From contig NZ_CAINTR010000140.1 in assembly GCF_903853455.1 (NCBI RefSeq), positions 1 to 33,636 on the forward strand: DNA of 33,636 nt, in the 5' to 3' direction. The translations under genes were made by a program, and so were the position numbers. Shown here piece after piece: positions 3,506 to 33,636 of this stretch. Each line of letters begins with the position of its first letter. Positions within the stretch are counted from its first letter, which is position 1. Origin of the DNA: an uncultured Magnetospirillum sp. (lineage in GTDB: Bacteria; Pseudomonadota; Alphaproteobacteria; Rhodospirillales; Magnetospirillaceae). The notes below the pieces were generated by a model. That model worked only from the letters and a program-made list of their open reading frames with translations. It made no database searches and was not told the DNA's origin.

Positions 3506-4327
3506 CTACTTCCCCGGCATGCGGGTGGTGGCGTAGACGCCGCGCTGATCCGGGACCGGCTTGAACTTGTCGGAAATGCCCAGCACGGTCTCGGCCCCAC
3601 CCAGGTAGAGGAAACCGTCGTCGGGCATCACCCGGCTCATGTTGTCGAGTACCCGGGTCTTGGTCGGCTGGTCGAAATAGATCAGGACGTTGCGACAGAA
3701 CACCACGTCGAACTGGCCCAGCGGCTTGAGGTCGTGCAGCAGGTTGTATTCGCGGAACTGCACCATGGCCCGGATGGCCGGGTCGATCTGCCACATCTCG
3801 GAGGTCTTCTTGAAGTACTTGACCAGCAGCTGGATCGGCAGGCCGCGTTGGACCTCGAACTGGGAGTAGAGGCCGGCCTTGGCCTTCTCCAGCATCTCGG
3901 TGGAGATGTCGGTGCCCAGGATCTCGATCTTCCAACCGGCCAGCTTGGCGCCTTCTTCCTTCAGCACCATGGCCAGGGTGTAGGCCTCCTGGCCCGACGA
4001 ACTGGCCGCCGACCAGATGCGCAACGTCTTTCGGGAACCGCGCGCCGCCAGCATGGCCGGCAGGACCATGGCCTTGAACTGCTCGAACGGCTTGATGTCG
4101 CGGAAGAAGAACGACTCGTTGGTCGTCATGGCTTCCGTGACCTCGCGCAGCAGGTCTTCGCCCGCCGTGCGAAGGCCGCCGACCAAGTCCTCCAGGCCCT
4201 TCAGGCCACGCTTGCGCGCCACCGGAGTCAGCCTGCTTTCCAGCAGATAGGCCTTGTCGCGCGTGATGACCAGACCGGAGCGGTCCTTGAGCAACTTGGC
4301 GGCGAAATCGAAATCTTCGGGCCGCAT
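3506..4327 (-). CDS. cheR: Chemotaxis protein methyltransferase CheR
   Basis: CheR transfers methyl groups from S-adenosylmethionine to glutamates of chemoreceptors, the adaptation step opposed by CheB. The 273-residue protein has a helical N-terminal domain (about 1-75) ending in TTNESFFFRD, and a Rossmann methyltransferase domain with IWSAASSSGQEAYT (104-117), ILGTDIS (136-142) and CRNVLIYF (211-218), all CheR hallmarks. No C-terminal TPR extension is present. It is the last gene of the cheAWYBR operon, four bases after the cheB stop, so the two are probably translationally coupled. No terminator is evident in the nine bases before the convergent xseA. Confidence 0.96.
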   Translation of the reverse strand: MRPEDFDFAAKLLKDRSGLVITRDKAYLLESRLTPVARKRGLKGLEDLVGGLRTAGEDLLREVTEAMTTNESFFFRDIKPFEQFKAMVLPAMLAARGSRKTLRIWSAASSSGQEAYTLAMVLKEEGAKLAGWKIEILGTDISTEMLEKAKAGLYSQFEVQRGLPIQLLVKYFKKTSEMWQIDPAIRAMVQFREYNLLHDLKPLGQFDVVFCRNVLIYFDQPTKTRVLDNMSRVMPDDGFLYLGGAETVLGISDKFKPVPDQRGVYATTRMPGK

Positions 4328-4331
4328 GGGT

Positions 4332-5489
4332 TTAGCGCCTCGCCGCCAGCTTCATGATCCACGGAGCAACTTCAGGCAAAGGAAGAACCGCCGAGCATAC
4401 GCCCGCCGATGCCACCGCCCCCGGCATGCCCCACACAACCGATGTGGCCTCGTCCTGGGCGATCACCGTGCCCCCGGACGCCACCACCGCCTGCCCGCCT
4501 TTAAGTCCGTCGGACCCCATCCCGGTCAGGATACACGCCAGAACACGCTTGCCGTAGGCCGCCGCGATGCTGCGAAGCATCGGATCGACAGCCGGCCGAC
4601 AGAAGTTTTCCGGCGGGTTCTTATTCAACCTCAGTATCTTATCAGCACCCTTGGTTTCGATCACCATGTGAAAGTCACCGGGCGCGATATAGACGCGGCC
4701 GCCGCGAACCACTTCGCCGTCCTGGCCCTCGCGCGCCTCCCAGCCGGAGACGCGGCTGATATGTTCGCCCAGGATGGTGGTGAAGGTCGCCGGCATGTGC
4801 TGGGTGATGACGATGGGCTGCGACACCGTTCCGGCGCGCATGGTTCCCAGCAGCGAGAACAGCGCCTGCGGTCCGCCGGTGCTTGATCCGATGGCGATGA
4901 TGTCGGGCGGCTCGGCCGCCTGGGTGCGCAATTGCACCGGGCCGGCATGGATGGCCACCCGGGGCATGGGCGTGATGGCGGTGGTGGCGCGCGGAGTGGG
5001 CGGCCCCCCCGGACGAGCCGGGCGCTTGGGATCGCGGCGCCGGGCCATGCCCAGGGCGCGAATCTTGCCGACCAGCTCGGCCTTGAAATCGACTCCGCCG
5101 GCCAGGTCGCGGGTGGCGGTCGGCTTGGGGATGTAGTCGGCGGCCCCCATCTCCATCGCCCGCATGGAAATGTCGGCGCCCTTGAGGGTCAGCGTCGATT
5201 GCATGATGACCTTGAGGCCGGGATCGATTTGCAGCAGCTTGGGCAGCGCCGTCATGCCGTCCATGACCGGCATTTCGATGTCGAGGATGACGACGTCGAT
5301 TTCGTTGCGCTCCAGCGCCGCCAGGGCCATCTGGCCGTTGCCCACCGACGCCGCGATCTTGATGCCCGCTTCCGCCTCCAGAATCCGGGTGACCAGCCCG
5401 CGAACGACGGCGGAGTCGTCCACGAGCATGACCCGAATCGAGTCGTCGGCGGGGCTGTTGGCAGCCGGCATGGGCGTTTCGTTGACCAT
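4332..5489 (-). CDS. cheB: Protein-glutamate methylesterase/deamidase CheB
   Basis: CheB is a response regulator that removes receptor methyl groups (and deamidates receptor glutamines) once phosphorylated by CheA. The 385-residue protein has an N-terminal receiver (about 18-135) with phospho-acceptor Asp70 in VVILDIEMPVMDG. A Pro/Arg-rich linker (about 150-190) leads to the methylesterase domain (about 193-383). The catalytic triad appears intact: Ser203 in GSSTGG, His231 in TQHMP and Asp327 in GMGSDG. The start at 5489 precedes a short extra N-terminal segment of about 17 residues; a later start is possible but none is obviously better. It lies 11 bases after cheY. Confidence 0.97.
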   Translation of the reverse strand: MVNETPMPAANSPADDSIRVMLVDDSAVVRGLVTRILEAEAGIKIAASVGNGQMALAALERNEIDVVILDIEMPVMDGMTALPKLLQIDPGLKVIMQSTLTLKGADISMRAMEMGAADYIPKPTATRDLAGGVDFKAELVGKIRALGMARRRDPKRPARPGGPPTPRATTAITPMPRVAIHAGPVQLRTQAAEPPDIIAIGSSTGGPQALFSLLGTMRAGTVSQPIVITQHMPATFTTILGEHISRVSGWEAREGQDGEVVRGGRVYIAPGDFHMVIETKGADKILRLNKNPPENFCRPAVDPMLRSIAAAYGKRVLACILTGMGSDGLKGGQAVVASGGTVIAQDEATSVVWGMPGAVASAGVCSAVLPLPEVAPWIMKLAARR

Positions 5490-5500
5490 CTGTGCGCTGC

Positions 5501-5866
5501 CTAGAGCAGGCCGACCTGCGAGAATTTCGCCTGCAGGATTTCGCTGTCGAACGGCTTCATGATGTATTCGTTGGCGCCAGCGGTAATGGCTTCCTGGATG
5601 TGCTCGATGTCGTTTTCCGTGGTGCAGAAAACGACGATGGGATGGTCGCCCCCCGGCAGGGCGCGCATGGCGCGCAGGAAGTCGATCCCGTTCATGACCG
5701 GCATGTTCCAGTCGAGCAGAACCGCGTCGGGCATGGAGCGCTTGCAGGCCTCAAGCGCCTGGGCGCCGTCCTCGGCCTCCTCGGTCTTGAAGCTCAACTC
5801 GTGCAGGATCTTCTTGGCCACCATCCGGATGACCTTGGAATCGTCGACGATTAGACAGGACTTCAT
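5501..5866 (-). CDS. cheY: Chemotaxis response regulator CheY
   Basis: This is a stand-alone receiver domain of 121 residues with no output domain, presumably phosphorylated by CheA and acting on the flagellar motor switch. The acidic pocket is Asp8-Asp9 (LIVDDS), the phospho-acceptor is Asp52 (LLDWNMPVMNG), the switch Thr is in FCTTEND (80-86), and Lys104 is in YIMKPF. The start is ambiguous: ATG 5866 gives MKSCLIVDD, whereas a TTG two codons upstream (5872) sits only five bases after GGAGG. I use ATG because receiver domains usually begin this close to beta-1. It lies between cheW (85-base gap) and cheB (11-base gap). Confidence 0.93.
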   Translation of the reverse strand: MKSCLIVDDSKVIRMVAKKILHELSFKTEEAEDGAQALEACKRSMPDAVLLDWNMPVMNGIDFLRAMRALPGGDHPIVVFCTTENDIEHIQEAITAGANEYIMKPFDSEILQAKFSQVGLL

Positions 5867-5951
5867 GTCCAAGCTTGCCTCCGGTGGAGAGGTATCAGCC
5901 GCGCCGATCGGCGGCCTACCACTTCGATGGTCTCGTTAACCAAAGCCTATA

Positions 5952-6437
5952 CTATTCGTTCCGCGTAAAATCCAGCAGCTTGCCCACATCAAGCACGACC
6001 AGCAGCTTATCTTCAAGCCGATAGATGCCGATGGAGAATTCCCGCCAGTGGAGATCAAGCGTCGGGGGATTGCGTTCGAACTTGGCCGCCGGCAGCGACA
6101 GCACCTCGCCCACCGAATCGACCATCAACGAATAGAGTTCGCCGCCCATATCGACGACGACGCTCATCCCCTTCTTCTCCTCGGCCCGCTTGGGCAGGCC
6201 GAGACGCAGCCGCACGTCGATGGCGGTGACGATGCGGCCGCGCAGATTGAGACTGCCGGCCACCTCGCGGGGCGCCAACGGGATGCGGGTGATCTTCTGG
6301 GGCCCCAGGACGTCCTGGACCGTCAGCACGGGAATGCCGAACAGCTGCCCCTCGATGAACATGGTGACGAAGTCCTGGGTCTCGGGAGCGGCGAGCTCCG
6401 TCGACGGACGCTTGCCGGCGGGGACGATCTGATTCAT
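5952..6437 (-). CDS. cheW: Chemotaxis coupling protein CheW
   Basis: CheW is the adaptor that links the kinase CheA to chemoreceptor arrays at the membrane. The 161-residue protein begins with about 18 polar residues and then a single CheW domain. Typical strands are seen: FVTMFIEGQLFGIPVLTVQDVL (about 23-44), the NLRGRIVTAIDVRLRLGL segment, VDSVGEVLSL and a C-terminal KLLVVLDVGKLL. The start ATG (6437) overlaps the cheA stop as ATGA, and AAAGGTG lies just upstream inside cheA, so translation is probably coupled and the kinase and adaptor made in step. The 85 bases after it, before cheY, contain no gene. Confidence 0.96.
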   Translation of the reverse strand: MNQIVPAGKRPSTELAAPETQDFVTMFIEGQLFGIPVLTVQDVLGPQKITRIPLAPREVAGSLNLRGRIVTAIDVRLRLGLPKRAEEKKGMSVVVDMGGELYSLMVDSVGEVLSLPAAKFERNPPTLDLHWREFSIGIYRLEDKLLVVLDVGKLLDFTRNE

Positions 6438-9112
6438 GCGGCACCTTTGGAGGCTGCGATGGTCGAGGCCAGGGTCTGCAACAAGGCATCACGGTCGAAT
6501 TTGGCGATGTAATCGTTGAAGCCGACCTGACGTCCGCGTTCGAAATCCTTTTCGGTGGCATGCGAGGACAGCGCCACCATGGGGATCTGGGCCCAGCGGG
6601 CGTCGCCCCGTACGGCGACGGCGAACTCGAAGCCGCTCATGCCGGGCATCTCGATGTCGCTGATGATGGCGTCAAACTCGTTGCCCTGCTCGCGCAGCGC
6701 CAGCGCCTTGTCGACGCTTTCCACCGAGATCACCTCATAGCCCGCCACCGACAGCAGCGGCGTCAGCAGGTTGCGGAAGAACGGCGAGTCGTCCACCAGC
6801 AGGACGCGGGGCGCATGGAAATCGGCGTTGCCGAATTCCTTGTCGTTGCGGCCGAACCAGTCGCCGAACGCCTGCGGCAGGTAGTAGCCGGCGTCGATGA
6901 TGGTGGTGGCCTTGCCGGCGATGACGGCGGTGCCGATGATGCCGGGGTTGCCGGCGGAGAGTTCGACCCGCAGGCGATCCTCGACGATGTCGACGATCTC
7001 ATCGACCACCAGGCCCATGGTGTGCTCCTGGTCGGAGAACACCAGCACCGGCTGGCGGCCCTCCTCGCGGAAGCTCATGGAGCCGTCGATGGCGATCAAC
7101 GGCATCAGATGGCCGCGATACTGGACCATGGGCTTGCCGTGGCTGTGTTCGATGTCGGTGACCTCGATTTCCTCGAGACGGGCGACCAGGGCCAGCGGAA
7201 CCGCCTTGAGGTCCTCGCCACCGGCGCGGAACACCAGCAAAGAGGTCTTGGCGTCGGCGTGGCTTTCGCGGACGGTCTGGGTATCGGCCGCCTGAGCTCC
7301 GCCCAACAGGCCGGATTCGCCGGTGGCGCCCGCGATGCCGTTGGGGTCGAGGATCATGATGACCGAGCCGTCGCCCAGGATGGTATTGCCCGAGAACATG
7401 GCGATGTGGCGCAGGATGGGGGCCACCGGCTTGACCACGATTTCCTCGGTGTCGAATACGCGGTCGACGATGATGCCGAAGGTGTAGGTGCCTACCTGGG
7501 TGACGACGATGAAGGTCTCCTGCCGCTCCTCGGTGTCCTCGGACAGCAGCAGCTGACGCTTCAAAGACACCAGCGGCAGTAGCCGGTCGCGCAGGCGAAG
7601 CACCGGGGCGTTGTTGATCATCTCGATGCCGTGTTCGGAATTGGCGGTGACGCGCACCAGTTCCAGAACGCTGATCTGCGGGATGGCGAAGCGCTCGTTG
7701 GCGCATTCGACGATCAGGGCCGAGACGATGGCCAGGGTCAGCGGGATCTTGATGACGAAGCTCGACCCCTTGCCGGGGAAGCTCTTCAATTCGACGGTGC
7801 CGCCGATCTTTTCGATGTTGGTGCGCACCACGTCCATGCCGACGCCGCGGCCCGACACGCTGGTGACCTTTTCGGCGGTGGAAAAGCCGGCCTTGAAGAT
7901 GAACTGGTAGATCTGCTGCGGCGTCAGGGTCTCCAGCTCGGACTCGGTGGCGATGCCGTTCTGGACCGCCTTCTGCTTGATGCGGTCCAGGTTGAGGCCG
8001 CGACCGTCGTCGGAGATCTCGATGATGATGTGGCCGCCTTCATGGAAGGCGTTCAGCACCACCTTGCCGACCTCGGGCTTGCCGATGCGCTTGCGTTCCT
8101 CGGTGGGCTCCAGGCCGTGGTCGGCCGAGTTGCGCACCATGTGGGTCAGCGGGTCCTTGATCAGCTCCAGCACCTGGCGGTCGAGTTCGGTCTCGGCGCC
8201 CAGCATCTGAAGGTCGATCTTCTTGTTCATTTCGACCGAGAGGTCGCGGACGATACGCGGCAGCTTGGCCCAGGCGTTGCCGATGGGCTGCATGCGGGTC
8301 TTCATCACCCCTTCCTGAAGGTCGGTGGTGATGTGGGACAGGCGCTGCAGCGGGGTGGCGAATTCGCTGTCGTCCTTGCCGCGGACCATCTGGAGCAACT
8401 GGTTGCGGGTCAGCACCAGCTCGGACACCAGGGTCATCAGGTTTTCCAGCAGCTCCACGTTGACGCGGATGGTCTGGGCGGCGACCGCCGATTCCTTGGC
8501 CTCCAGCGGGGCGCCGGTCACGACCTGGGCGGCGACATGGGCGGGCACGCCGGCCTTGGGCGCGGGCTCGTCTTCCACTTCGGGTTCCGGGTCGTGAGCG
8601 ACCGGTGCCGGCGGCGGCGGGGGAGGAGGGGGAGGCGGCGGCGCGGCGGCGGCCGGCGCGGGTTCCGGGATGGAGGACAGCGACTCGAAGGTCGGCATGG
8701 GCGGCGGCGGCGGCGGCGGCGGCGAGCCGGCGGCACGACCGTCGGCCATGGCGTTGAGCTCGGCGATCAGGTCTTCGTCGCTGCCCTCGGGCTCACACTC
8801 GTTTTGCTCGAGATGGCCCAGGATCAACTTGATGCGGTCGATGGACTGGAGGATCAGGGTCACGGCGGTGGGGGTGACTTCCAGCTCGCCGTCGCGGAAC
8901 TTGCCCAGCACGTTCTCGCCGGCATGGGCGACATGTTCCAGCCGAGGCAAGCCGAGGAAGCCGCAAGTGCCCTTGATGGTATGGACCAGGCGGAAGATGT
9001 TGCCGAGGATCTGGGGATCGTTCGGATTCTGCTCCAGATTTACCAATGCCACGTCAAGCGTGGAAAGACTCTCCGACGTCTCTGTCAGAAATTCACTAAG
9101 GAGATCATCCAT
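6434..9112 (-). CDS. cheA: Hybrid chemotaxis histidine kinase CheA with receiver domain
   Basis: CheA autophosphorylates in response to receptor state and passes phosphate to CheY and CheB. At 892 residues it is longer than classical CheA (about 650). Domains in order: Hpt (1-105; phospho-His44 in RLVHTIKG), an Ala/Pro-rich linker with runs of 8 and 11 prolines (131-138, 158-168) and no recognisable P2 domain, dimerisation (about 213-275), ATPase (about 300-455; N-box 319-333, glycine box SVSGRGVGMD), a CheW domain (about 465-600), a second divergent CheW-like domain (about 632-765), and a C-terminal receiver (768-888; Asp819 in SDIEMPG). GGAG lies six bases before the ATG. It is the first gene of the che operon, with a palindrome (9140-9153) upstream. 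The receiver may act as a phosphate sink. Confidence 0.96.
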   Translation of the reverse strand: MDDLLSEFLTETSESLSTLDVALVNLEQNPNDPQILGNIFRLVHTIKGTCGFLGLPRLEHVAHAGENVLGKFRDGELEVTPTAVTLILQSIDRIKLILGHLEQNECEPEGSDEDLIAELNAMADGRAAGSPPPPPPPPMPTFESLSSIPEPAPAAAAPPPPPPPPPPPAPVAHDPEPEVEDEPAPKAGVPAHVAAQVVTGAPLEAKESAVAAQTIRVNVELLENLMTLVSELVLTRNQLLQMVRGKDDSEFATPLQRLSHITTDLQEGVMKTRMQPIGNAWAKLPRIVRDLSVEMNKKIDLQMLGAETELDRQVLELIKDPLTHMVRNSADHGLEPTEERKRIGKPEVGKVVLNAFHEGGHIIIEISDDGRGLNLDRIKQKAVQNGIATESELETLTPQQIYQFIFKAGFSTAEKVTSVSGRGVGMDVVRTNIEKIGGTVELKSFPGKGSSFVIKIPLTLAIVSALIVECANERFAIPQISVLELVRVTANSEHGIEMINNAPVLRLRDRLLPLVSLKRQLLLSEDTEERQETFIVVTQVGTYTFGIIVDRVFDTEEIVVKPVAPILRHIAMFSGNTILGDGSVIMILDPNGIAGATGESGLLGGAQAADTQTVRESHADAKTSLLVFRAGGEDLKAVPLALVARLEEIEVTDIEHSHGKPMVQYRGHLMPLIAIDGSMSFREEGRQPVLVFSDQEHTMGLVVDEIVDIVEDRLRVELSAGNPGIIGTAVIAGKATTIIDAGYYLPQAFGDWFGRNDKEFGNADFHAPRVLLVDDSPFFRNLLTPLLSVAGYEVISVESVDKALALREQGNEFDAIISDIEMPGMSGFEFAVAVRGDARWAQIPMVALSSHATEKDFERGRQVGFNDYIAKFDRDALLQTLASTIAASKGAA

Positions 9113-9139
9113 GGCCGACTCCAGTAGGACCCTTTATTA

Positions 9140-9153
9140 CCGTCGTCCGACGG
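9140..9153. promoter_or_regulatory. Perfect 6-2-6 palindrome in the cheA leader
   Basis: CCGTCGTCCGACGG forms two perfect 6-base arms around two bases, about 28 bases upstream of the cheA start. It lies in the 156-base gap between chpT-like and cheA, where both genes read leftward. It could be an operator for a dimeric regulator or a small RNA hairpin in the cheA leader. No specific regulator is recognised. Confidence 0.35.
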
Positions 9154-9268
9154 TTTCCATCCCAGCTTCCCCAACCGAAGTCGGGGGCGCGGTATCGACT
9201 AATAGCACGGCCCGGATGTCCTTAGAAGAACCCAAACCGAGATAAATCCGCTTCCGTAACGAATTTGT

Positions 9269-9892
9269 TCAGGCCACGATCCGGCCGCCGTCGTCCCGGC
9301 TCTCGAAGCGGAGTGTTACGCCGATTTTTTCGGCCAGACGCCGGGTGAACCAGGCCTGGGCGGCGCGGGGGCCGGCGGGGTCCGCTCCCGCCAGCAGGGC
9401 GGCTTCCGATTCGTCGCCCAGCCGGGCGCCCTTGCCGAGGAAGGCGACCGCGAGGCCGGCGGCACCGGGCGGGGCCACGGGCGTGACTTCGACCACGATC
9501 TCGCCGCCGTGCGGCAGGGAGTCGCGGGCCACCAGAATCAGGTTGAGCACCAGCCGCGCCACGTCGCCGGCCAGCCGGGGGCGGCCGCAGCTCCAGCGCA
9601 GGCTCAACCGGCCGGCGGCCCCCGCCTCGGTGGCGCGCAAGTAAGCCGCCGTCAGATCCTGCACCGCGTCGGCCGGCTGGTCGGAGCCCGCCGGCCCCAG
9701 GGCGGCGCGGAAGAATTTCAGCCGCGCCACCGCGCTGGCGGCGCTGGCCGCCACCAACTGCACCGTTTCGGCGTCGAATCCGTCCTCCAGCAGCTCCGCT
9801 CCGGCGGCGGCGGCTCCCACCGCTCCGGCCATGTCGTGGCACAGGCGGGCGCACAGCAACTCGGCATGGAGAATATCGTCGTCGTGGGTCAT
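9269..9892 (-). CDS. chpT: ChpT-like histidine phosphotransferase
   Basis: The 207-residue protein matches the alphaproteobacterial HPTransfase (PF10090) pattern, a pseudo-kinase with a DHp-like helical hairpin and a degenerate ATPase fold that relays phosphate between a hybrid kinase and response regulators. The N-terminal helix reads ELLCARLCHDMAGAVGA, with the candidate phospho-His at residue 19. A GAELLEDG segment follows, and the C-terminal part ends in a beta-rich segment with TLRFESRDDGG. No intact ATP-binding boxes are visible. In Caulobacter, ChpT links CckA to CtrA and CpdR. Its start overlaps the upstream RNA methyltransferase stop (ATGA), and cheA starts 156 bases downstream. Whether it is the true ChpT ortholog or a chemotaxis-linked paralog is unsettled. 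Confidence 0.75.
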   Translation of the reverse strand: MTHDDDILHAELLCARLCHDMAGAVGAAAAGAELLEDGFDAETVQLVAASAASAVARLKFFRAALGPAGSDQPADAVQDLTAAYLRATEAGAAGRLSLRWSCGRPRLAGDVARLVLNLILVARDSLPHGGEIVVEVTPVAPPGAAGLAVAFLGKGARLGDESEAALLAGADPAGPRAAQAWFTRRLAEKIGVTLRFESRDDGGRIVA

Positions 9893-11226
9893 CGTTTCAG
9901 CACCACCACCGCTTCCAGATGGGCCGACCAGGGGAACTGGTCGATGGGGGCGACGTCCTCGGGCCGCCAGCCGCCGTCGACCAGCAGCCGGAGGTCACGG
10001 GCCAGGGTCGCCGGATTGCACGACACCATCACCAGGGTGTGGGGGCCGCCCTTGGCGTTGGCCGGCTTGGCCAGCTCGGCGGCCTGCGGCGCGGCGCCTC
10101 CCCGTGGCGGGTCCATCACCACCGCCCGGTAGGGGATCAGCTCGTGCGCCCCCAGCGGCCGGCGGGCGAGGTCGCGGATTTCGGTGGTGACGGGAAGGCC
10201 GTCGCGGCGGATGGCGGCGTCCAGCGCCGCCAGCGGTCCCTGCTCGCCCTCGACGGCGTGGACGGCGCCGCGCCGCGACAGCGGAATGGTGAAACTGCCG
10301 CAGCCGGCATAGAGGTCGGCCATGGTCGCGGCCTCGCCCACCGCCGTCAGGACCCGCTCGACGATGGCCAGTTCGCCGCCCCGGGTCGGCTGCAGGAAGG
10401 CGCCCGGCGACGGCTCCACCATCACGCCGGCGAAGCCGACCTCGGCCGCCCGGCGGCGGGCGATGGGTTCGGCGAAGCCTCCTCCCGGCCGGCGCCAGGT
10501 CAGGCGGGCGAGGTCGGCGGTCTCGGCGAAGGCGGCCAGCTTCTCGCGGTCGAACAGGTCGAGGCGGGCCTCGGCCTCCACCAGCACGTCGAGGCCGCCT
10601 TCGGTCAGGGTGGCCACCACGTCGCCGGAGGTGCCCTCCGGCACGATCTCGGCCAGCATGACGCGCAAGGCCGGCAGCAGGGCGACCAGCGCCGGCTCCA
10701 GCAGCAGACAGCGCTCCACGTCGATCACGCTGTGGCTGGCCCGGCCGTTGAACCCGACCAGGGCGGCGCCCCGGCTGCGGGCGAAGGCGAAGGTGGCGCG
10801 GCGGCGGCTGGCCGGCGGCACCCGCACCAGCGGCAGGACGGGAATGTCGCCGAGACCCTGGCGGGCCAGTTGGGTGACCAGCAGGTCGCGTTTCCAGGTG
10901 GCATAGGACTCGTCGTCCAGATGCTGCAAGCTGCAGCCGCCGCAGCGGCCGTAATGGGGGCAGGGCGGCGCGACCCGGCCCGGTCCCGGCTCCAGCACTT
11001 CGATCAGGCTGGCGGCGAGGCCGTCGCCGCGCCGGCTCTCGATGCGGGCCAGCACCTTGTCGCCGGCCACGGTGAAGGGGACGAACACCGGCTCGCCGTC
11101 CAGGCGGGCCTGCCCGTCGCCCCGCGCTCCCACCGACTCGATGTCCAGTTCGACGGTGCGGGCGGGTGGCGGCGCGGCGCGGCCCTTGCGGGTCTGTCCG
11201 GCGGGACGGCGCGGCGGCTTCCTCAT
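9889..11226 (-). CDS. RlmD/RumA-type 23S rRNA (uracil-5-)methyltransferase
   Basis: This SAM-dependent RNA m5U methyltransferase of the TrmA/RumA family has 445 residues. A basic N-terminal tail is followed by a TRAM domain (about 22-80). Four cysteines fit a 4Fe-4S cluster: Cys89, Cys95, Cys98 (CPHYGRCGGC) and Cys173. The methyltransferase domain has FLQPT (278-282), DLYAGCGSFTIPL (304-316), MDPPRGG (371-377) and the nucleophile Cys403 in VSCNPATLARD. The iron-sulfur site and TRAM domain favour 23S rRNA (RlmD-like) over TrmA, but the exact uridine cannot be read from sequence. Its ends overlap both neighbours by four bases, placing it in the lipoprotein-methyltransferase-chpT string. Confidence 0.9.
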   Translation of the reverse strand: MRKPPRRPAGQTRKGRAAPPPARTVELDIESVGARGDGQARLDGEPVFVPFTVAGDKVLARIESRRGDGLAASLIEVLEPGPGRVAPPCPHYGRCGGCSLQHLDDESYATWKRDLLVTQLARQGLGDIPVLPLVRVPPASRRRATFAFARSRGAALVGFNGRASHSVIDVERCLLLEPALVALLPALRVMLAEIVPEGTSGDVVATLTEGGLDVLVEAEARLDLFDREKLAAFAETADLARLTWRRPGGGFAEPIARRRAAEVGFAGVMVEPSPGAFLQPTRGGELAIVERVLTAVGEAATMADLYAGCGSFTIPLSRRGAVHAVEGEQGPLAALDAAIRRDGLPVTTEIRDLARRPLGAHELIPYRAVVMDPPRGGAAPQAAELAKPANAKGGPHTLVMVSCNPATLARDLRLLVDGGWRPEDVAPIDQFPWSAHLEAVVVLKR

Positions 11227-11825
11227 TTCGGGGGGCCTCCGGCGCGGACCCGGCCGAGATCGGCGAGGAACCGGCCGAACACCTGGGAGACGCCCCGCTC
11301 CATGGCGGCGACCACGCCGTCGATCCCGCCGGAACCGACGGGGACGAGGGCGCTGTAATCCTCCAGCAGGACCAGGGTGCCGTCATGGGCGGAGACCACG
11401 CTCAACTCGATGTCCACCGCCACCTGGGAACTGTCGGCCAGATGTTCGAGGCGATGCAGCTTGCCGCGCAGGGTCCAGTCGGCAAGCACCCCCAATTCGG
11501 GCGACAGCACCCGGTCGGCGGCGCCGGCGGTGGTGAGGAAGCGGGCCAGCCGGTCCTGCAGCATCATCGCCGGCGGATCGCTCCACAGGTCGTATTTGTA
11601 GTGGGACAACGGCCCGCCATCCCGGGCGGCGACGGTGATCGCCCGTTCGTCCAGGACGCCGTCGGCGGTCAGGCGCTGGACCTCCAGCACGCCGGGCAGC
11701 GGCGGCTTGGCGAACCGGCTGGCCGCCGGTCCCGGCTCGATCCGATAGAACATGTCGGGCGGCGGCGCCGGCAAGGCGCAGGCGGCCAGCGCGAGGAGGA
11801 GGGCGATGCTTCCAAGACGTTTCAC
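11223..11825 (-). CDS. ABC-type transport auxiliary lipoprotein
   Basis: The 200-residue product belongs to the ABC auxiliary lipoprotein family (PF03886; PqiC/YmbA-like), periplasmic lipoproteins that work with MCE-type lipid transporters. A short signal peptide with lipobox LAAC (Cys16) is followed by ALPAPPPDMFYRIEPG, the typical start of the family, and later by DRLARFLTTAG and a DGTLVLLEDYSA segment. I chose GTG 11825 because it places the lipobox 16 residues in; the frame extends upstream to ATG 11924, but those codons lie in an intergenic repeat. No clear Shine-Dalgarno sequence is visible. It lies 270 bases downstream of the MlaD-type gene and overlaps the methyltransferase gene by four bases. 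Confidence 0.85.
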   Translation of the reverse strand: MKRLGSIALLLALAACALPAPPPDMFYRIEPGPAASRFAKPPLPGVLEVQRLTADGVLDERAITVAARDGGPLSHYKYDLWSDPPAMMLQDRLARFLTTAGAADRVLSPELGVLADWTLRGKLHRLEHLADSSQVAVDIELSVVSAHDGTLVLLEDYSALVPVGSGGIDGVVAAMERGVSQVFGRFLADLGRVRAGGPPK

Positions 11826-11829
11826 GAGA

Positions 11830-11877
11830 CACGGATGGATACGGAGGCCCGCGACGCGGGCCACGGATGGACACGGA
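11830..11877. repeat. Direct repeats flanking a perfect hairpin
   Basis: CACGGATGGATACGGA (11830-11845) and CACGGATGGACACGGA (11862-11877) differ at one base in 16. Between them lies a perfect 7-bp hairpin, GGCCCGC-GAC-GCGGGCC (11846-11862). The CACGGATG/ACACGGAT motif is, from memory, a widespread type of intergenic repeat in environmental proteobacteria. It directly precedes the lipoprotein start. Confidence 0.7.
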
Positions 11878-11962
11878 TCAAGCTCGGTCACGGCAATACC
11901 CTCCGTCTTCCATTTTCTCGCCATCGTTCAGTGCCAAAGGAAGAAGATTTCTGACACGAATG

Positions 11963-12095: not shown

Positions 12096-13058
12096 CTACT
12101 TCCGCGCCGGCCGATCTTCGCCGCCCTTGGTGCCGCCGATCAGCACGCCGGGATTGTCGCGGATCTGGCGGCTGAATTCATGCAGGTTGCGGGTGGTGCC
12201 GTCGAGATTGTAGGTGACCGAGTCGATGTTGCGCGACACCGCCTGGAGGGTGTGGCGCAGATCCTTCAGGCTCTGGTCGATGTTGTCCTTGTTGCCGGTC
12301 ACCGTGCTGTCGAGGCTGGCCAGCATGGAATCGATCTTGCGGCGGCTGTCCTGCAGCCCGGCCGACAACTGGGCCACGTTGGCGATGGACAGGCGGATCT
12401 GCTCGGCATTGGCCTCGGTGACCACCTTGGACGACAGCGTCCCGGTCATGCGCTCCACATCGGCGGTGATGCGCGGCGTCTTGGCCGCCAGGTCGGCGGT
12501 GACCGCCACCATGTTGCTGACCATTTCGGGGGCGTGCTTCTCCAGGATGGCTCCCAGGCTTCCCACCTGCTGGGTCAGGGAGGACAGCAGCGGCTTCAGG
12601 GCGTTCTGGTTGAGGTCGGAGACCTGCCCGGCGACGTCGTTCATGACCGCGAAGATGTTGGCGGCGGGGCCGGCGGTGATGTCGGTGCCCGGCTTCAGCA
12701 TGTCGGCGTTGGAGCCGCCCTTGATTTCCACCGCCACCGCCGCCAGGATTCCCGAGGCGGCGACATAGGCGATGGAATCCTTGGGGATCTGCCAGCCGCG
12801 CTGGACCGACAGTTCCAGGCGGAATACGGTCTTGCCGTCCCGGCGCAGCGGCTCGATGGCCTCCACCTGACCGATGTCGAAGCCCTCGTAGCTCACCTTG
12901 GTGCCGTATTTGATGCCGGCGACGTTGTCCATGCGGGTGAAGTAGGAATCGGTGGCGCCGCCGCGGCCGGTGAGCAGCGCCACCACCACCACCAGCGCCA
13001 CCAGCATGGCCAGCACGAAGCTGCCGACCACCACGTAGTTGATCCTGGAATCCTTCAT
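12096..13058 (-). CDS. MlaD-type MCE-domain lipid transport protein
   Basis: This is a periplasmic, membrane-anchored MCE protein of the MlaD family, which forms a ring that passes lipids between the ABC transporter and the outer membrane. The 320-residue product has one N-terminal membrane helix (about 8-30) and an MCE domain (about 38-115: VAGIKYGTKVSYEGFDIGQV, later YVAASGILAAVAVEIKGG). A long C-terminal helical region (about 150-300) of Asn/Gln/Leu-rich segments probably forms a coiled-coil extension. E. coli MlaD (183 residues) lacks such a long tail; this length is closer to other MCE subfamilies. The start overlaps the ATPase stop (ATGA). No mlaC gene is in the window. Confidence 0.9.
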   Translation of the reverse strand: MKDSRINYVVVGSFVLAMLVALVVVVALLTGRGGATDSYFTRMDNVAGIKYGTKVSYEGFDIGQVEAIEPLRRDGKTVFRLELSVQRGWQIPKDSIAYVAASGILAAVAVEIKGGSNADMLKPGTDITAGPAANIFAVMNDVAGQVSDLNQNALKPLLSSLTQQVGSLGAILEKHAPEMVSNMVAVTADLAAKTPRITADVERMTGTLSSKVVTEANAEQIRLSIANVAQLSAGLQDSRRKIDSMLASLDSTVTGNKDNIDQSLKDLRHTLQAVSRNIDSVTYNLDGTTRNLHEFSRQIRDNPGVLIGGTKGGEDRPARK

Positions 13059-13894
13059 GTGCGGGGCGTTCCGTCTGGCGGGGTGGAGGTGTCGCCCAAC
13101 AGCCGGCGCAGATAGGCGTCGGGATCGGGTTCGGCCTCCTCGGTGCGGCGGTTGAGCAGGTTCTGGATGCGGGTGTCGGTGCTGGCGCGGATGGCCTCGA
13201 CGGTGTCGAGCGCCAGGACCTTGCCCTTGTCCAGCACGCAGATGCGGTCGGCGATCTTGAAGGTGGAGTCGAGGTCATGGGTGACCACCACGATGCTCAT
13301 GCCCATGGCGTCGCGCAGCCGCAGGATCAGGTCGTCGATGGAGGACGCCACCACCGGGTCGAGACCGGCCGAGGGCTCGTCGCAGAACAGCACCTCGGGA
13401 TCCATGACGATGGCCCGCGCCAGGGCGGCGCGCTTGATCATGCCGCCCGACAGCTCCGCCGGCTTCAGGTTCTCGAAGCCGGCCAGGCTCACCACTTCCA
13501 GCTTCAGCCGGGTCATGATGCCGATGGTGGTGGGGTCGAGGTCGGTGTGCTCGCGCAGCGGCAGGGCGATGTTGTCGCCGATGCTCATGGAGCTGAACAG
13601 GGCGCCGGACTGGAAGGCGACGCCGGTGCGGGTGCGCAGCTTCTGCCGCTCCAACGGGGTCAGCCGGCCCAGGTCCTGGTCCAGGATGCGCACCGTCCCC
13701 GAGGTGGGCGGCATCAGCCCCAGCAGATGGTTGAGCAAGGTGGTCTTGCCCGAGCCCGACCCGCCCATGATCACCATGATCTCGCCCTGCTTCACCTCGA
13801 GGCTGACGTTATGCAGGATCTGGCGGTCGCCGTAATGGGTGTTGAGGTCGATCACCTCGACGCTGTGGGCGACGGATTGGGACGAGCGGCTCAT
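13055..13894 (-). CDS. MlaF-type lipid ABC transporter ATPase
   Basis: This is the cytoplasmic ATPase of an MlaEFD-type phospholipid transporter. The 279-residue protein has Walker A GGSGSGKTT (44-52), the Q-loop around Gln95, the signature LSGGM (148-152), Walker B VLFCDE (168-173) and switch His206 (VVVTHDLDS). A C-terminal tail of about 40 residues (QNLLNRRTEEAEPDPDAYLRRL region) is reminiscent of the MlaF tail that embraces its partner. The start at 13894 shares one base with the permease stop (TGATG); an upstream extension of the frame is a shadow of the permease gene. The stop overlaps the MCE gene start, so permease, ATPase and MCE protein are translationally coupled. Confidence 0.95.
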   Translation of the reverse strand: MSRSSQSVAHSVEVIDLNTHYGDRQILHNVSLEVKQGEIMVIMGGSGSGKTTLLNHLLGLMPPTSGTVRILDQDLGRLTPLERQKLRTRTGVAFQSGALFSSMSIGDNIALPLREHTDLDPTTIGIMTRLKLEVVSLAGFENLKPAELSGGMIKRAALARAIVMDPEVLFCDEPSAGLDPVVASSIDDLILRLRDAMGMSIVVVTHDLDSTFKIADRICVLDKGKVLALDTVEAIRASTDTRIQNLLNRRTEEAEPDPDAYLRRLLGDTSTPPDGTPRT

Positions 13895-14709
13895 CAGCGT
13901 GTCACCATGAAGACGAAGATCATGTCGGTGATGACGATGGCCGAGATGGCGTGCACCACCGAGCGGGTGGTCATGTGGCCGACGCCCTCGGCGCCGCCGC
14001 TGACCGAGGCGCCGTTGACCACGCCGACGATGGTGATCAGCACCGAGAAGATGACGCTTTTGGCCAGGCCGTGCAGCATGTCGTTCATCTGGACCAGCGA
14101 GGTGACCTCGTTGACATAGGCGCCCATGGTGCTGCCCAACTGCGGCGCGATGTAAAGGCCGGCGGTGAACAGGCCGACCAGATCGGCCCACAGGGTCAGG
14201 CAGGGCAGCATCACCATCATGGCCACCAGGGCCGGCACCACCAGGAACCGCACCGGCGACACTCCCATGACGGTGAGCGCGTCGATCTCCTGGTTGATGC
14301 GCATGGTGCCCAGCCGGGCCGCCAGCGCCGAGCCCGAACGGCCGGCGACCAGGATGCCGGTGATCAGCGGCGCGAATTCGCGCACGGTGGACATGGCGAC
14401 GCCCAGGGTCACCCGGGATTCGGCGCCGAACAGCTTCAGCGAATAGACTCCCTGGATGGCCAGCATGATGCCGATGGTGCCCGACAGCACGGTGACGATG
14501 GGCAGCGCCCCGATGCCGATCTCCATGGCCTGGGCGACCACGGGGCCAAGGCGGACCGGCTGGCGCCGCTTGCGTCCCATCGCCAGCCAGAACACGCTTT
14601 CGCCCACCAGCGCGGCGCCGAAACCGAACTCGGCGACGCCCGCCACCGCCCAGCGTCCCAGGCGATCAAGCATCTTGGTCAGTTTGTCGACGCCCAACCC
14701 CCCGGCCAC
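13894..14709 (-). CDS. MlaE-family lipid ABC transporter permease
   Basis: This integral inner-membrane permease of 271 residues belongs to the MlaE/YrbE family. It has an N-terminal amphipathic segment, about five membrane helices, and the family core AGRSGSALAARLGTMRINQEIDALTVMG (about 122-149) written here as AGRSGSALAARLG, then TMRINQEIDAL. The position after AA that is Glu in E. coli MlaE is Arg132 here. The start is GTG 14709, four bases after the STAS gene stop, with AAAGGG seven bases upstream. Unlike many relatives with a fused N-terminal STAS domain, the STAS part here is a separate, adjacent gene. The C-terminus (TTRSVVHAISAIVITDMIF) is typical. Confidence 0.93.
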   Translation of the reverse strand: MAGGLGVDKLTKMLDRLGRWAVAGVAEFGFGAALVGESVFWLAMGRKRRQPVRLGPVVAQAMEIGIGALPIVTVLSGTIGIMLAIQGVYSLKLFGAESRVTLGVAMSTVREFAPLITGILVAGRSGSALAARLGTMRINQEIDALTVMGVSPVRFLVVPALVAMMVMLPCLTLWADLVGLFTAGLYIAPQLGSTMGAYVNEVTSLVQMNDMLHGLAKSVIFSVLITIVGVVNGASVSGGAEGVGHMTTRSVVHAISAIVITDMIFVFMVTR

Positions 14710-14713
14710 CGCT

Positions 14714-15040
14714 TTACCCTTTCAAGGCCGCCTCGACGCTGTCGGCCAAGCTGAAGACCCGGTCGAGCCGCGCCAGTTGCAACACCCGGCGGACCGGGTC
14801 GCTGATCGCCGCCAGGACGAAACGTGTGCCATTCGTGCGGGCCATCTGGTAGGCCTCGACCAGACCGGCGACGCCCGAACTGTCCACATAGGTGACGGCG
14901 GACAGGTCCACCACCACCGCGCGGCGTTCGAACATCAACTCCATCAGCGCTTTGCGCAGGGCGGGACTGTGGCTGAGATCCACCTCGCCCGCCAGCGCCA
15001 TCACCATGGTTCCGTCGATTTCACTGGTGTTCAGGTTCAT
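14714..15040 (-). CDS. STAS-domain protein (anti-sigma antagonist or MlaB-like)
   Basis: The 108-residue protein is a single STAS domain. It resembles anti-sigma-factor antagonists: GEVDLSHSPALRKAL (18-32), VVVDLSAVTYVDSSGVAGL (42-60) with candidate phospho-Ser54 in DSSG, and a C-terminal helix. Two jobs fit. It could be the substrate of the upstream kinase/phosphatase protein in a partner switch, since its start overlaps that gene's stop (ATGA). Or it could be the MlaB-like partner of the downstream MlaF-type ATPase, since the permease starts four bases later. In E. coli MlaB, a Thr occupies the equivalent of Ser54 (recollection). Both roles together would make it a phosphorylation-controlled transporter subunit. 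Confidence 0.9.
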   Translation of the reverse strand: MNLNTSEIDGTMVMALAGEVDLSHSPALRKALMELMFERRAVVVDLSAVTYVDSSGVAGLVEAYQMARTNGTRFVLAAISDPVRRVLQLARLDRVFSLADSVEAALKG

Positions 15041-16704
15041 GGGCTGATCCGTTTGACCATCTGCAACAGGTTTCCGATCCCGGCCGGCGGGGCCAGGAAG
15101 TCCACCTGATCCATCACCGACCGCATCAGGTGGGTTCCCAGACCGCCCGGCCGCACCTCGTCCAGCGACCGGGGCTTGATCTTAGCCACTTCCACCGGTG
15201 GCGCGAAGTCCATAAGTCGGATGACCAGCAGATCGTCCTCGCGGTCCAGATGCAGGACGATGTCGCCTTCGCCGCCCTTATAGGCGTGGCGGATGATGTT
15301 CTGGCAGGCCTCGTCCACCGCCAGCACCATGTCCTGGGCCATGTCCGCGGGGCAGCCCAGCTCGCCCGCCACCCGCGCCACGGTGGCGCGGATCTCGCCC
15401 AGGGTCTCCGGGCGGGCGGCGTAGCTGCGCTCGAAGGCGCCCTTGGCGGCGAGGCGGCGGTCCTCGACCACCAGCAGGGTGACGTCGTCGCGCAAGGACC
15501 CGACTCCGTCCAGCGAACGCACCACCGCCGCCAGCCGCTCGGCTGCCGGCATGGCGGCGAAGGCGTCCAGCAGCGACTTGGCCCCGTCGCTGCCCAGCAT
15601 GGCGCCGTCCTTGGTGCGCACCTCGGTCAGTCCGTCGGTGAACAGGTACAGCGCGCCGCCGTCGAGTTCGACCACGCTTTCGGGGCAGCCGTCGGCGAAC
15701 AGGTCGGGAGCGATGCCCAGCGGCGGCATGCCGTCCTCGATGGCGCGGAACCCGTCGCGGCCGCGCACCAGCGGCGGCTCGTGCCCGGCATTGGCCAGCA
15801 CCACCCGGCCGGTTTTGGGGTCGAGGATGCCGGCCACCATGGTGACGAACATGCCGGCCAGCCCGGTCTCCTGCAATTCGGAATCGATGGCGGCGAGGAT
15901 GCGGCCGGGACCGTCCTCGCGCTTGGCCAGACAGCGGAAAAGGCTGGCGGTCTTGGTCATCAGCAGCGAGGCGTTCATCCCCTTGCCCGACACGTCGCCG
16001 ATGGCGAAGGCGATGCTGCCGTCGGCCAGCGGCAGAATCTCGTAGAAGTCGCCCGACACTCCGCGTGCCGGCAGATTGATGCCGTGGATCGGCGAGGCCG
16101 GAGCCTGGGGCGGCGGCAGCATGGCGCGCTGGATTTCCGAGGCCAGCACCAGTTCGCGCTTCAACCCCTCCTGCTCGGCGGCGGCGGTGACCAGACGGGT
16201 GTTGATCAGGGCCAGCGCCGACGACATGGACAGCGCCCGCAGCAATTGGGCGTCGGCCTGGGTGAAGGCGGCGCCGCCCTGCTTGTTGAACAGCTCGATG
16301 GCGCCCAGCTTCTGGCCGCGAAACGACATGGGGGCGCACAGGATCGAGCGGGTGACGAAGCCGGTGGCGGCATCGATGGCGCCGGTGAAGTCGGGGTCGT
16401 GGCGGGTGTCGCGGACCAGTTGCGGCATGTCGAGATCGACGGTGCGCCAGACGATGCCCCGGCCGGGCGCGAGGCGCAGCCCCACCACCTCGGTCGGTCC
16501 GATGCAGGCGTGGCAGACCAGTTCGCCGCTGTCGGGTTCCAGCAGGAACAGCGAGGCCGCCTCGGCTCCCAGCCGGCTGGCGACCCGCTCCAGCCCCAGG
16601 CGCAAGGTCGCCTCCACATCCTGGGATTGAGCGAAATCGCTGGTCATCTCGATCATCAGGTCGAGATGGCTGGAGGCTTCGGCGTCGGCTTTGGACTTGG
16701 GCAT
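15037..16704 (-). CDS. GAF / PP2C (SpoIIE-type) phosphatase / RsbW-like ATPase
   Basis: The 555-residue cytosolic signalling protein has three domains. GAF (about 28-175) is a likely small-molecule or redox sensor. PP2C/SpoIIE phosphatase (about 200-415) has metal ligands Asp219 (SGDFYE), Asp237 (GDVSGKG), Asp357 (FTDGLTE) and Asp406-Asp407. An RsbW-like GHKL ATPase (about 425-555) has an N-box with Glu465 and Asn469 (DEACQNIIRHA), Asp499 (MDFAPP) and GGLGTHLM. Such proteins phosphorylate and dephosphorylate a STAS partner, here presumably the next gene, which overlaps by four bases. The start at 16704 is a choice; the frame continues upstream to 16809, but that stretch is not family-like and the Shine-Dalgarno sequence is weak. 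Confidence 0.93.
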   Translation of the reverse strand: MPKSKADAEASSHLDLMIEMTSDFAQSQDVEATLRLGLERVASRLGAEAASLFLLEPDSGELVCHACIGPTEVVGLRLAPGRGIVWRTVDLDMPQLVRDTRHDPDFTGAIDAATGFVTRSILCAPMSFRGQKLGAIELFNKQGGAAFTQADAQLLRALSMSSALALINTRLVTAAAEQEGLKRELVLASEIQRAMLPPPQAPASPIHGINLPARGVSGDFYEILPLADGSIAFAIGDVSGKGMNASLLMTKTASLFRCLAKREDGPGRILAAIDSELQETGLAGMFVTMVAGILDPKTGRVVLANAGHEPPLVRGRDGFRAIEDGMPPLGIAPDLFADGCPESVVELDGGALYLFTDGLTEVRTKDGAMLGSDGAKSLLDAFAAMPAAERLAAVVRSLDGVGSLRDDVTLLVVEDRRLAAKGAFERSYAARPETLGEIRATVARVAGELGCPADMAQDMVLAVDEACQNIIRHAYKGGEGDIVLHLDREDDLLVIRLMDFAPPVEVAKIKPRSLDEVRPGGLGTHLMRSVMDQVDFLAPPAGIGNLLQMVKRISP

Positions 16705-29606: not shown

Positions 29607-30917
29607 CTAACCGGCGCTTCGGGACAGCGCCAAACAGGTGATGTCGTCCGACTGCTCGCAGCCGGCGGCAAAGGCCACCACCGCCGCGTCCACCGCCGCC
29701 AGCGCCTCGGTCGCGTCCGGCCGCGACAGCCCGGCCAGCAGTTCGCTCAGCCGCGCCTCGCCGAACATGGCGCCGTCGGCGGCGAAGGCTTCGGTGACTC
29801 CGTCCGAGGGGACGAACATCAGCTCGCCCGGCTCCAGCCGAATTTCCACGGCCGCGAATGTCTTCCCGGCGATCATGGCCACCGCCGGCCCGGTCGGGCT
29901 CAGCACCTGAACCCCGCCGTCGGCGCGCAGCACATAGCCGTCGCAATGGCCGGCGTTGACGTAGCGCAGGACGCCGGTGGCCATGTGCAGTTCGGCGACG
30001 AAGACGGTGACGAATAGCCCTTCCTCATTCTCCGCCTCCAACTGGGCGTTGGCGCGGGCCAGGGCGTCTTCCAGCGGGGTGACCGACTGCACCATGGCGC
30101 GCACCAGGGTCCGGCTGACCGCCATGAACAGCGAGGCGGGAATGCCTTTGCCCGACACGTCGGCCACCACCATGATGGCGCGGCCGTCGGCGGTGAGGAA
30201 AAAGTCGTAGAAATCGCCGCCCACGTCGCGGGCCGGCCGCATGAAGGCCGCCGCGTGGAACGGCGATCCGGGGCCGAAATCCAGGGTGCGCGGCAGGATG
30301 GATTGCTGGAGCCGCGCCGCGAATTCCATTTCATGGCGGCGGGCGTTCTTCTCCTGCATCTCGTGCACGATCTTCTGGAACGAGCGGGTGAAGGGGCTTT
30401 CGTCGCCGACCGAATCCAGCATCCGCCCCAGGGCCGCCGCGTCCATGTCCTCGCGCTCCAGGGCCTGGGCCGCCAGGGTCAGCAGCGCCAGCGGCGTGTT
30501 CAGCGCGTTGATGCGCCGGCCGAGCGCCCCGATGACGCTGAAGGCGGTGTCGGGATGCTGGACGATCACCTCGGCCAGGGCCTGGCGGCCGAGGCTGAGC
30601 ACGGTGGTGTCCTCGGTGGCGCGGACGGTGGCGGTGCGCGGCAGATCGGTGAACACGGCGATCTCGCCGACGATCTGCTGGGCGCCCAGTTGGGCCATGG
30701 AGACCTCGCCCAGCGCGGTCTCCACCACCACGTCCAGGCGGCCGGCCAGGATCACGAAGGCGCTGTCGCCGGCTTGCCCCTGGCGGATCAGGGTGGTGCC
30801 GGCGGGAACGTCGAGGATGTCGGCGCATTCCAGCAGCTTGTCCAGGATCTCCGGGGCGAGTCCTCCCAGCAAGGCGCTGTGGCGGATGGCCTCGATGGTT
30901 TCGATCTGTGTTTCCAT
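29607..30917 (-). CDS. Cyclic-nucleotide-binding PP2C (SpoIIE-type) phosphatase
   Basis: The 436-residue cytosolic protein joins a Crp-type cyclic-nucleotide domain (about 14-130) to a SpoIIE/PP2C serine phosphatase (about 215-432) through a helical linker. The phosphate-binding loop GEIAVFTDLPRTATVRA (84-100) keeps the Glu and Arg typical of true cNMP binders. Phosphatase metal ligands are Asp235 (GGDFYD), Asp253 (ADVSGKG), Asp372 (PSDGVTE) and Asp424-Asp425. Unlike the other phosphatase in this window there is no GHKL kinase domain. I chose ATG 30917 (AGGAG nine bases upstream); ATG 30923 or 30962 are alternatives. The GGDEF-EAL gene ends 75 bases upstream on the same strand. Its STAS-type substrate is not next to it. 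Confidence 0.9.
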   Translation of the reverse strand: METQIETIEAIRHSALLGGLAPEILDKLLECADILDVPAGTTLIRQGQAGDSAFVILAGRLDVVVETALGEVSMAQLGAQQIVGEIAVFTDLPRTATVRATEDTTVLSLGRQALAEVIVQHPDTAFSVIGALGRRINALNTPLALLTLAAQALEREDMDAAALGRMLDSVGDESPFTRSFQKIVHEMQEKNARRHEMEFAARLQQSILPRTLDFGPGSPFHAAAFMRPARDVGGDFYDFFLTADGRAIMVVADVSGKGIPASLFMAVSRTLVRAMVQSVTPLEDALARANAQLEAENEEGLFVTVFVAELHMATGVLRYVNAGHCDGYVLRADGGVQVLSPTGPAVAMIAGKTFAAVEIRLEPGELMFVPSDGVTEAFAADGAMFGEARLSELLAGLSRPDATEALAAVDAAVVAFAAGCEQSDDITCLALSRSAG

Positions 30918-30992
30918 GCCCATCGGCTCCTGCCATTCACCCAGCGGTATCATAGCGTCCATCCGGAGGCGAGCAATCCGGTGAGCGCCCGA

Positions 30993-33332: not shown

Positions 33333-33450
33333 GCGATGGCTTCGTTCGCTATCCAAGGGGGCGGCCGGTTGCGGGTCAGGGGCGGATCTGTTTTGCTGCC
33401 AAAGGACGAATGTGGCGAATGGGACGCTTCGCCCATTCGAGAGGCCGCTC

Positions 33451-33478
33451 ATGATAGGCTGATTTTCAGTATGGTCAA
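33451..33478 (-). promoter_or_regulatory. Promoter for the GGDEF-EAL gene
   Basis: On the - strand TTGACC (33478-33473) and TATCAT (33456-33451) are 16 bases apart, each matching the housekeeping consensus at five of six positions. Transcription would start near 33443 and give a leader of about 110 bases. The -35 lies four bases from a run of 12 G on the + strand. Confidence 0.6.
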
Positions 33479-33481
33479 TCA

Positions 33482-33493
33482 GGGGGGGGGGGG
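33482..33493. repeat. Homopolymer run of 12 G
   Basis: Twelve consecutive G (C on the - strand) lie just upstream of the GGDEF-EAL promoter -35. Runs this long are prone to slipped-strand length change and also to sequencing error. Confidence 0.9.
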
Positions 33494-33582
33494 CGTCCTC
33501 ACCATCCCTCAGTTTCCGCTTGCCTGAAAGAATCGGTGTGTGATTCAAGGATTCCGCCCTTTGATCGAGCGGAGGCGGCAGG

Positions 33583-33636
33583 ATGGGTGGGATCGAGCAC
33601 GTTGCGGCAGGGATCATTGCGGACCTTGAGGCGAAG
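33583..33636 (+). CDS. Start of an unidentified gene, cut by the window edge
   Basis: ATG 33583 follows GGAGG by seven bases and opens a frame of 18 codons (MGGIEHVAAGIIADLEAK) that leaves the window. The ribosome site is one of the best here, which supports a real start. The family cannot be named from 18 residues. It is divergent from the GGDEF-EAL gene. Confidence 0.5.
   Translation, partial: MGGIEHVAAGIIADLEAK

Follow-up and report, generated by a model that had tools for sequence, protein, structure and literature searches.

Can partner switching, in which a phosphatase and a kinase set the state of a STAS protein, govern the transport of lipids? The question is raised by a 33,636-nucleotide contig of an uncultured Magnetospirillum sp. 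(NZ_CAINTR010000140.1, positions 1 to 33,636; the window, at its full length), where a gene for a protein with GAF, PP2C (SpoIIE) and RsbW-type kinase (HATPase) domains is followed by genes for a STAS protein, an MlaE-type permease and an MlaF-type ATPase. A preliminary description of this DNA had reported these four adjacent genes, and their positions and junctions were all confirmed, on the minus strand. In E. coli, MlaF needs the STAS protein MlaB for its stability and the transporter needs it for its activity, and phosphocontrol of MlaB has been proposed in papers of 2016 and 2020, whose excerpts name no kinase (PMC5016091, PMC7367683; these, like the other papers on individual systems cited here, are represented by excerpts). 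The 2020 paper calls the control of MlaB-type subunits an open question (PMC7367683). The cluster, which is shared by magnetic spirilla and their relatives, supplies a conserved pair of candidate enzymes in spirilla that are not known to be pathogens, and with it this question becomes directly testable. We consider it rather probable that the free STAS protein of an Mpc-type transporter stands here under a partner-switching module of its own, phosphorylation of its Ser54 stopping transport.

Conservation carries most of the argument. With the window's MlaE as probe, 58 loci were fetched from samples of the family, the class and the phylum. Of the family's 55 genomes, the source genome counted, 44 hold a close relative (E < 1e-80) and the remaining 11 only more distant MlaE proteins; window-type MlaE (E up to 1e-50) occurs in 11 of 289 genomes of the class sample, 10 of them outside the family, and the probe found matches in 6 of the 398 genomes of the phylum sample, 4 of them new. 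In 54/58 loci, MlaE is preceded on its strand by genes for STAS and an RsbW-type HATPase, and in 52/58 by PP2C too. A scan of named genomes, in which 80 of 411 confirmed matches were kept, gave 77/80 loci with STAS and HATPase and 74/80 that also have PP2C. The two locus sets overlap and merge into 97 loci distinct by MlaE; many of the sequences come from related metagenome-assembled genomes (MAGs), and locus counts are therefore not counts of independent events. Gene order that dissolves in relatives had been named beforehand as an outcome that should overturn a functional reading. What was found is strong conservation, with STAS and the RsbW-type kinase upstream of MlaE in 92 of the 97 loci and PP2C as well in 88. 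Moreover, within the class sample a GAF-PP2C protein (E up to 1e-45) is encoded in 11/11 genomes with window-type MlaE and in 4/278 others (Fisher p 6e-17, uncorrected for kinship). The gene layout is a conserved unit.

The STAS protein and its two candidate partners

To judge by its families, the first protein would unite in one chain a sensor, a STAS phosphatase and an RsbW-type STAS kinase, and its kinase domain is the best HATPase_c_2 match of the genome. The catalytic residues are kept across the loci. The N-box Glu and Asn and the GGLG motif (G2 box) of the kinase are intact in 92/92 loci, and a script found the four metal-site motif patterns of the phosphatase in 86 of 87 complete PP2C domains (one fragment was dropped), the 87th (L066) having DDTT when inspected by eye. 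At several loci the HATPase is encoded in a separate open reading frame (ORF). The predicted acceptor of the STAS protein, which in the window reads D53-S54-S55-G56, is a serine in 92/92 loci, within DSSG in 90, DSSC in one and ESSG in one.

AlphaFold was run on single read-through chains, in which neighbouring in-frame genes were joined and stop codons read as glycine. The HATPase-STAS chain (locus L145, 58 alignment rows) reached a pTM of 0.86 and a mean pLDDT of 90.4, with a disordered linker. In our judgement the relative placement of kinase and STAS is predicted with confidence, because two independently floating domains of such size would not reach this pTM. Foldseek matches of the model include TM1442, RsbV, SpoIIAA and SpoIIAB, and in two loci (L100 and L101, which share their MAGs with L033 and L034) HATPase and STAS share one open frame without a stop. 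At another locus (L045:1279-2096), two consecutive STAS genes, both with DSSG, lie between kinase and MlaE, the kinase-proximal copy differing in helix 2; perhaps one copy faces the kinase and the other the transporter.

On the transporter side, the three residues by which E. coli MlaF docks in the groove between MlaF and MlaB have aligned counterparts in Tyr261, Leu265 and Leu266 of the window's MlaF (PMC7367683). The corresponding tail pattern (Y/F-x3-hydrophobic) is found in 86 of 88 complete window-type MlaF proteins, L051 and L052 being the exceptions, and in 0/19 sister MlaF proteins, of which 5 come from loci without a STAS-model match and 14 are encoded next to a permease to which a STAS-like domain is fused.

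The genome holds 15 STAS matches with PF01740 and 17 with STAS_2 (the sets overlap), and among them only the window STAS shares a contig with either of the two MlaE genes (C140 and C216). A separate MlaB homolog elsewhere, which the preliminary description had regarded as fatal to its proposal, did not come to light: the remaining STAS matches all lie away from the MlaE genes, and the 7 of them that were scored reach at most 28.0 bits with the MlaB model, against 33.7 for the window STAS. In a tree, the transporter-linked STAS proteins form a joint clade separate from 7 paralogues of the genome, with a weak clade support of 0.32. A STAS fused into the second MlaE (C216) was also considered and proved unsupported, since the upstream part of the long frame looks non-coding by eye and the contig gave no STAS match.

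Gene packing, neighbours and rearranged loci

The features of the cluster are collected in the table. The first gene is taken to start at the ATG at 16704, as in the preliminary description; a mechanical ORF would start at the GTG at 16809.

Features of the cluster in the window, with the evidence for each
Feature	Position	Strand	Details
GAF-PP2C(SpoIIE)-HATPase_c_2 protein	15037..16704	-	555 aa from ATG; Pfam
GAF domain	16207..16623	-	residues 28-166; Pfam GAF_2 5.1e-14
PP2C/SpoIIE phosphatase domain	15463..16023	-	residues 228-414; Pfam SpoIIE 3.9e-40; SGDF, DVSGKG, FTDG and DDVT in translation
RsbW/SpoIIAB-type kinase domain	15052..15420	-	residues 429-551; HATPase_c_2 4e-26; N-box EACQN, GGLG
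STAS protein	14714..15040	-	108 aa; Pfam STAS 4.7e-23
Ser54 codon, predicted phospho-acceptor	14879..14881	-	aligns with Thr52 of E. coli MlaB; codon checked
MlaE-type permease	13894..14709	-	GTG start; Pfam 2.7e-66
MlaF-type ATPase	13055..13894	-	domain-model matches
MlaF C-terminal motif Y-L-R-R-L-L	13097..13114	-	residues 261-266; alignment to E. coli MlaF
MlaD/MCE protein	12096..13058	-	320 aa, long stretch C-terminal to MCE domain; Pfam
ABC_trans_aux lipoprotein (PF03886)	11223..11924	-	Pfam 6.6e-17

The genes are tightly packed. The kinase and STAS genes overlap by 4 bases (ATGA), STAS and MlaE are separated by a 4-base gap, MlaE and MlaF overlap by 1 base, and a further ATGA overlap joins MlaF to MlaD. 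The span first drawn for the cluster held the right four genes and ended too early, as MlaD and a lipoprotein that we take to belong to the PqiC/MpcA family come after MlaF. From the lipoprotein, 4-base overlaps run on into RlmD-like (11226) and ChpT-like (9892) genes. Because they reach that far, overlap in itself argues only weakly for a functional link, and conservation is the stronger argument for it. A pattern scan found no promoter patterns and 3 terminator patterns, with 2.0 expected.

Five loci lack an upstream STAS. Two of them (L064 and L140) have a contig end close upstream, and another is L063, which keeps the MlaF tail motif with no local STAS. In the fourth (L032, genome G001) the module has been relocated and the transporter genes are unlinked from it: a HATPase (49% identical to that of the window) and a STAS (60%) lie about 8 kb off on the same contig, and a GAF-PP2C protein (63%) is encoded on another contig; the relocated STAS groups inside the transporter-linked clade (weak support, 0.32). 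In the fifth (L052:421-2870, genome G265), a more diverged set, of PP2C, HATPase and a STAS protein much extended at its C-terminus, is convergent to the transporter genes, on their other side rather than upstream. Four loci have STAS and no PP2C, namely L065 and L144, where the contig ends, and L035 and L116, which have none within 5.5 kb upstream. At L064 a lone window-type MlaE, where the contig ends, has neighbours that by eye are pyrC- and pyrB-like, and the best MlaF match is on another contig.

Elsewhere in the window, genes for CheR, CheB, CheW and CheA (the last with a receiver domain) lie downstream of those for the ChpT-like histidine phosphotransferase and the RlmD-like methyltransferase (3506-11226, minus strand). 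A second PP2C/SpoIIE protein (29607-30962, minus strand), with an N-terminal cyclic-nucleotide-binding domain, adjoins a PAS-GGDEF-EAL protein (30993-33617).

A proposed switch and its rivals

Like MlaB in E. coli, unphosphorylated STAS would bind MlaF, and the ATPase would assemble and run. The RsbW-like domain would bind STAS and phosphorylate Ser54 within the face that MlaF also needs; phosphorylated STAS would then leave MlaF and transport would stop, until the PP2C domain, tuned by GAF, removed the phosphate and allowed it to restart. The STAS-MlaF contact, the phosphorylation, its polarity and the GAF signal are the elements that we infer. The contact between SpoIIAA and SpoIIAB surrounds the acceptor serine. 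In RsbU-RsbV, that serine was modelled at the catalytic centre of the phosphatase (PMC11418112), and in E. coli Thr52 sits near the centre of the MlaF-MlaB interface, where the T52E substitution weakens MlaF binding (PMC7367683). Taken together, these three lines suggest that a single face of STAS would be contested by MlaF and the kinase.

Several observations weigh against such a switch. The window STAS falls in the anti-sigma antagonist class (NCBIfam TIGR00377, 79.5 bits with a cut-off of 53.45) and its 33.7 bits with the NCBIfam MlaB model are below the cut-off of 90; predicted models of its relatives carry one additional short strand and a last helix, both missing from MlaB; and Ser/Thr at the acceptor site is conserved broadly across STAS proteins (PMC7367683). 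In E. coli, MlaB T52A still binds and ATPase activity is lost, a poor fit to simple phosphocontrol (PMC5016091, PMC7367683), and MlaF-MlaB binding survives deletion of the MlaF tail (PMC7367683). A STAS-MlaE-MlaF chain, the monomeric stand-in for a dimeric complex, reached a pTM of 0.51 (pLDDT 86.4) and speaks neither for nor against a STAS-MlaF contact; the pTM of 0.86 for kinase and STAS stands without a negative control. Inter-protein co-variation (86 loci, effective number 52) lacked power: the share of high-scoring pairs is small for kinase-STAS (0.0005) and as high for STAS-PP2C (0.0022) as for STAS-MlaF (0.0023), the two largest shares that involve STAS. In these two pairs STAS columns 28, 33 and 36 recur and look like clade markers, and the analysis was set aside as uninformative.

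The genomic record has its own discordant cases. Besides L035 and L116, with no PP2C within 5.5 kb upstream, a Zetaproteobacteria MAG (L063/L154) has the transporter and no STAS within the contig. G165 (L158:89-3197) encodes a complete GAF-PP2C-HATPase/STAS pair of the window's clade beside ccmA, with window-type MlaE undetected in a genome that is 81% complete; in the other three MlaE-less genomes with GAF-PP2C (G061, at a contig end, G208 and G201), the fetched stretch gave no match to the STAS and HATPase domain models. In addition, the overlapping genes of the window extend into RlmD-like and ChpT-like genes of unrelated function. That one STAS protein serves both kinase and transporter, as first supposed, is supported in part, by gene order, enzyme motifs and the kinase-STAS model, and left unsupported at the STAS-MlaF contact.

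STAS might be a substrate of the module only and never touch MlaF, the cluster merely co-expressing a switch and a transporter. Its anti-sigma antagonist class, its fold neighbours (TM1442, RsbV, SpoIIAA), the unconfident STAS-MlaE-MlaF chain, the G165 module with no transporter detected and the overlaps that join unrelated genes too are all in keeping with this. Nevertheless, we think it unlikely, since the position of STAS between kinase and permease is kept in 92/97 loci, MlaF retains the tail that docks MlaB, the genome has no second STAS close to an MlaE gene, and Mpc-type permeases carry a STAS domain (PMC12436622; our own evidence is weaker). Information could also flow in reverse, from a transporter that acts as the sensor: MlaF would hold STAS when assembled or working, and free STAS would report to a kinase/phosphatase acting on another target. 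STAS can remain a shared subunit here, the genomic evidence is silent on direction, and no sigma target is known for a partner-switching set described from another alphaproteobacterium (PMC3999984). However, input to such modules usually enters at the phosphatase, the side on which the GAF domain sits, and no conserved output gene was seen beside the loci, a weak point as eight domain models only were scored; reverse flow appears fairly improbable. The approximately 15 STAS matches of the genome would leave room for the kinase/phosphatase to act mainly on another STAS protein, that of the window being a constitutive MlaB-like subunit. This can hardly be believed in view of the overlapping genes, the confident kinase-STAS model, the single ORF for kinase and STAS in two MAGs and the grouping of the transporter-linked STAS proteins in one clade that excludes 7 paralogues (support only 0.32).

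Under the switch favoured here, with STAS shared and Ser54 as its control point, partner switching would reach beyond transcription and also govern the movement of lipids across the envelope. The novelty first seen in phosphocontrol of such a transporter has to be narrowed, the hypothesis being already published (PMC5016091, PMC7367683); new is the conserved kinase/phosphatase gene in the same cluster. To the published idea the present analysis adds a candidate enzyme pair, its conservation and an Mpc-type context. In the open-access literature (subscription papers and preprints lie outside this scope), none of the matches listed joins an Mla or MCE transporter with a partner-switching kinase/phosphatase, and the words Mla, ABC transporter and lipid are absent from a review of STAS-only proteins (PMC8256260).

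Comparison with known systems

The layout of the transporter is closer to the Mpc system of Brucella abortus (MpcE-MpcF-MpcD-MpcA) than to E. coli Mla. Both it and Mpc have MlaE- and MlaF-type subunits, a long single-MCE protein (331 aa in MpcD, 320 aa in the window's MlaD), a PqiC-like lipoprotein as the last gene and a STAS domain within the system, and, as far as the excerpts of the Brucella paper go, neither has MlaC. The STAS domain of Brucella is fused to the permease MpcE (PMC12436622), whereas the window STAS has a separate gene, preceded by that of the kinase/phosphatase.

Permeases with a STAS-like N-terminus also occur in the window's own family, beside or instead of the free-STAS kind. 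Pfam STAS_2 stays below its cut-off in 3 of 4 that were tested and has no match in the fused-type permease of L061; a profile comparison gave E 3.1e-5 and a probability of 73%, with 8 of 14 sequences, six having been dropped by a motif filter. Our own evidence for a STAS domain in these permeases is weak, and for Brucella MpcE it is that of PMC12436622. An MlaE type other than that of the window (L061, L167-L179) has a STAS-like N-terminal part with a W-D-S/C motif, and domain models found no kinase/phosphatase in the stretches fetched around it. One lineage has a STAS-type domain joined to its permease and another has one joined to the kinase, which speaks for a free STAS that works with the two of them. 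Were the transporter indeed governed by partner switching, two lineages of one kind of transporter would represent an unswitched design, whose permease includes the STAS domain, and a switched one, with a free STAS and a kinase/phosphatase.

With E. coli MlaFEDB the cluster shares STAS, MlaE, MlaF and MlaD, the alignment of Thr52 with Ser54 and that of the C-terminal motif of MlaF. E. coli differs in its gene order F-E-D-C-B, with MlaC, and in a minimal STAS protein, MlaB, for which the excerpts name no kinase or phosphatase (PMC7367683).

The enzymes, in turn, resemble RsbU-RsbV-RsbW and SpoIIE-SpoIIAA-SpoIIAB in the PP2C phosphatase, the GHKL kinase, the acceptor serine of STAS and the fold matches. 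Phosphatase and kinase are united in one chain, as here, in Rv1364c of Mycobacterium tuberculosis and in SypE/SypA of Vibrio fischeri, and the excerpts on these state no link to a lipid transporter (PMC12143880, PMC3999984); the Rv1364c chain also holds a STAS domain and, unlike the window protein, a PAS domain. In the classical Rsb and SpoII systems the output is a sigma factor, whereas the linked candidate output here is an ABC ATPase. The chances seem to us evenly balanced that this is the first ABC transporter under partner switching, in which MlaF would take the place of a sigma or anti-sigma factor and a bifunctional, GAF-sensing phosphatase/kinase would build or dismantle a trans-envelope lipid conduit through the state of one serine.

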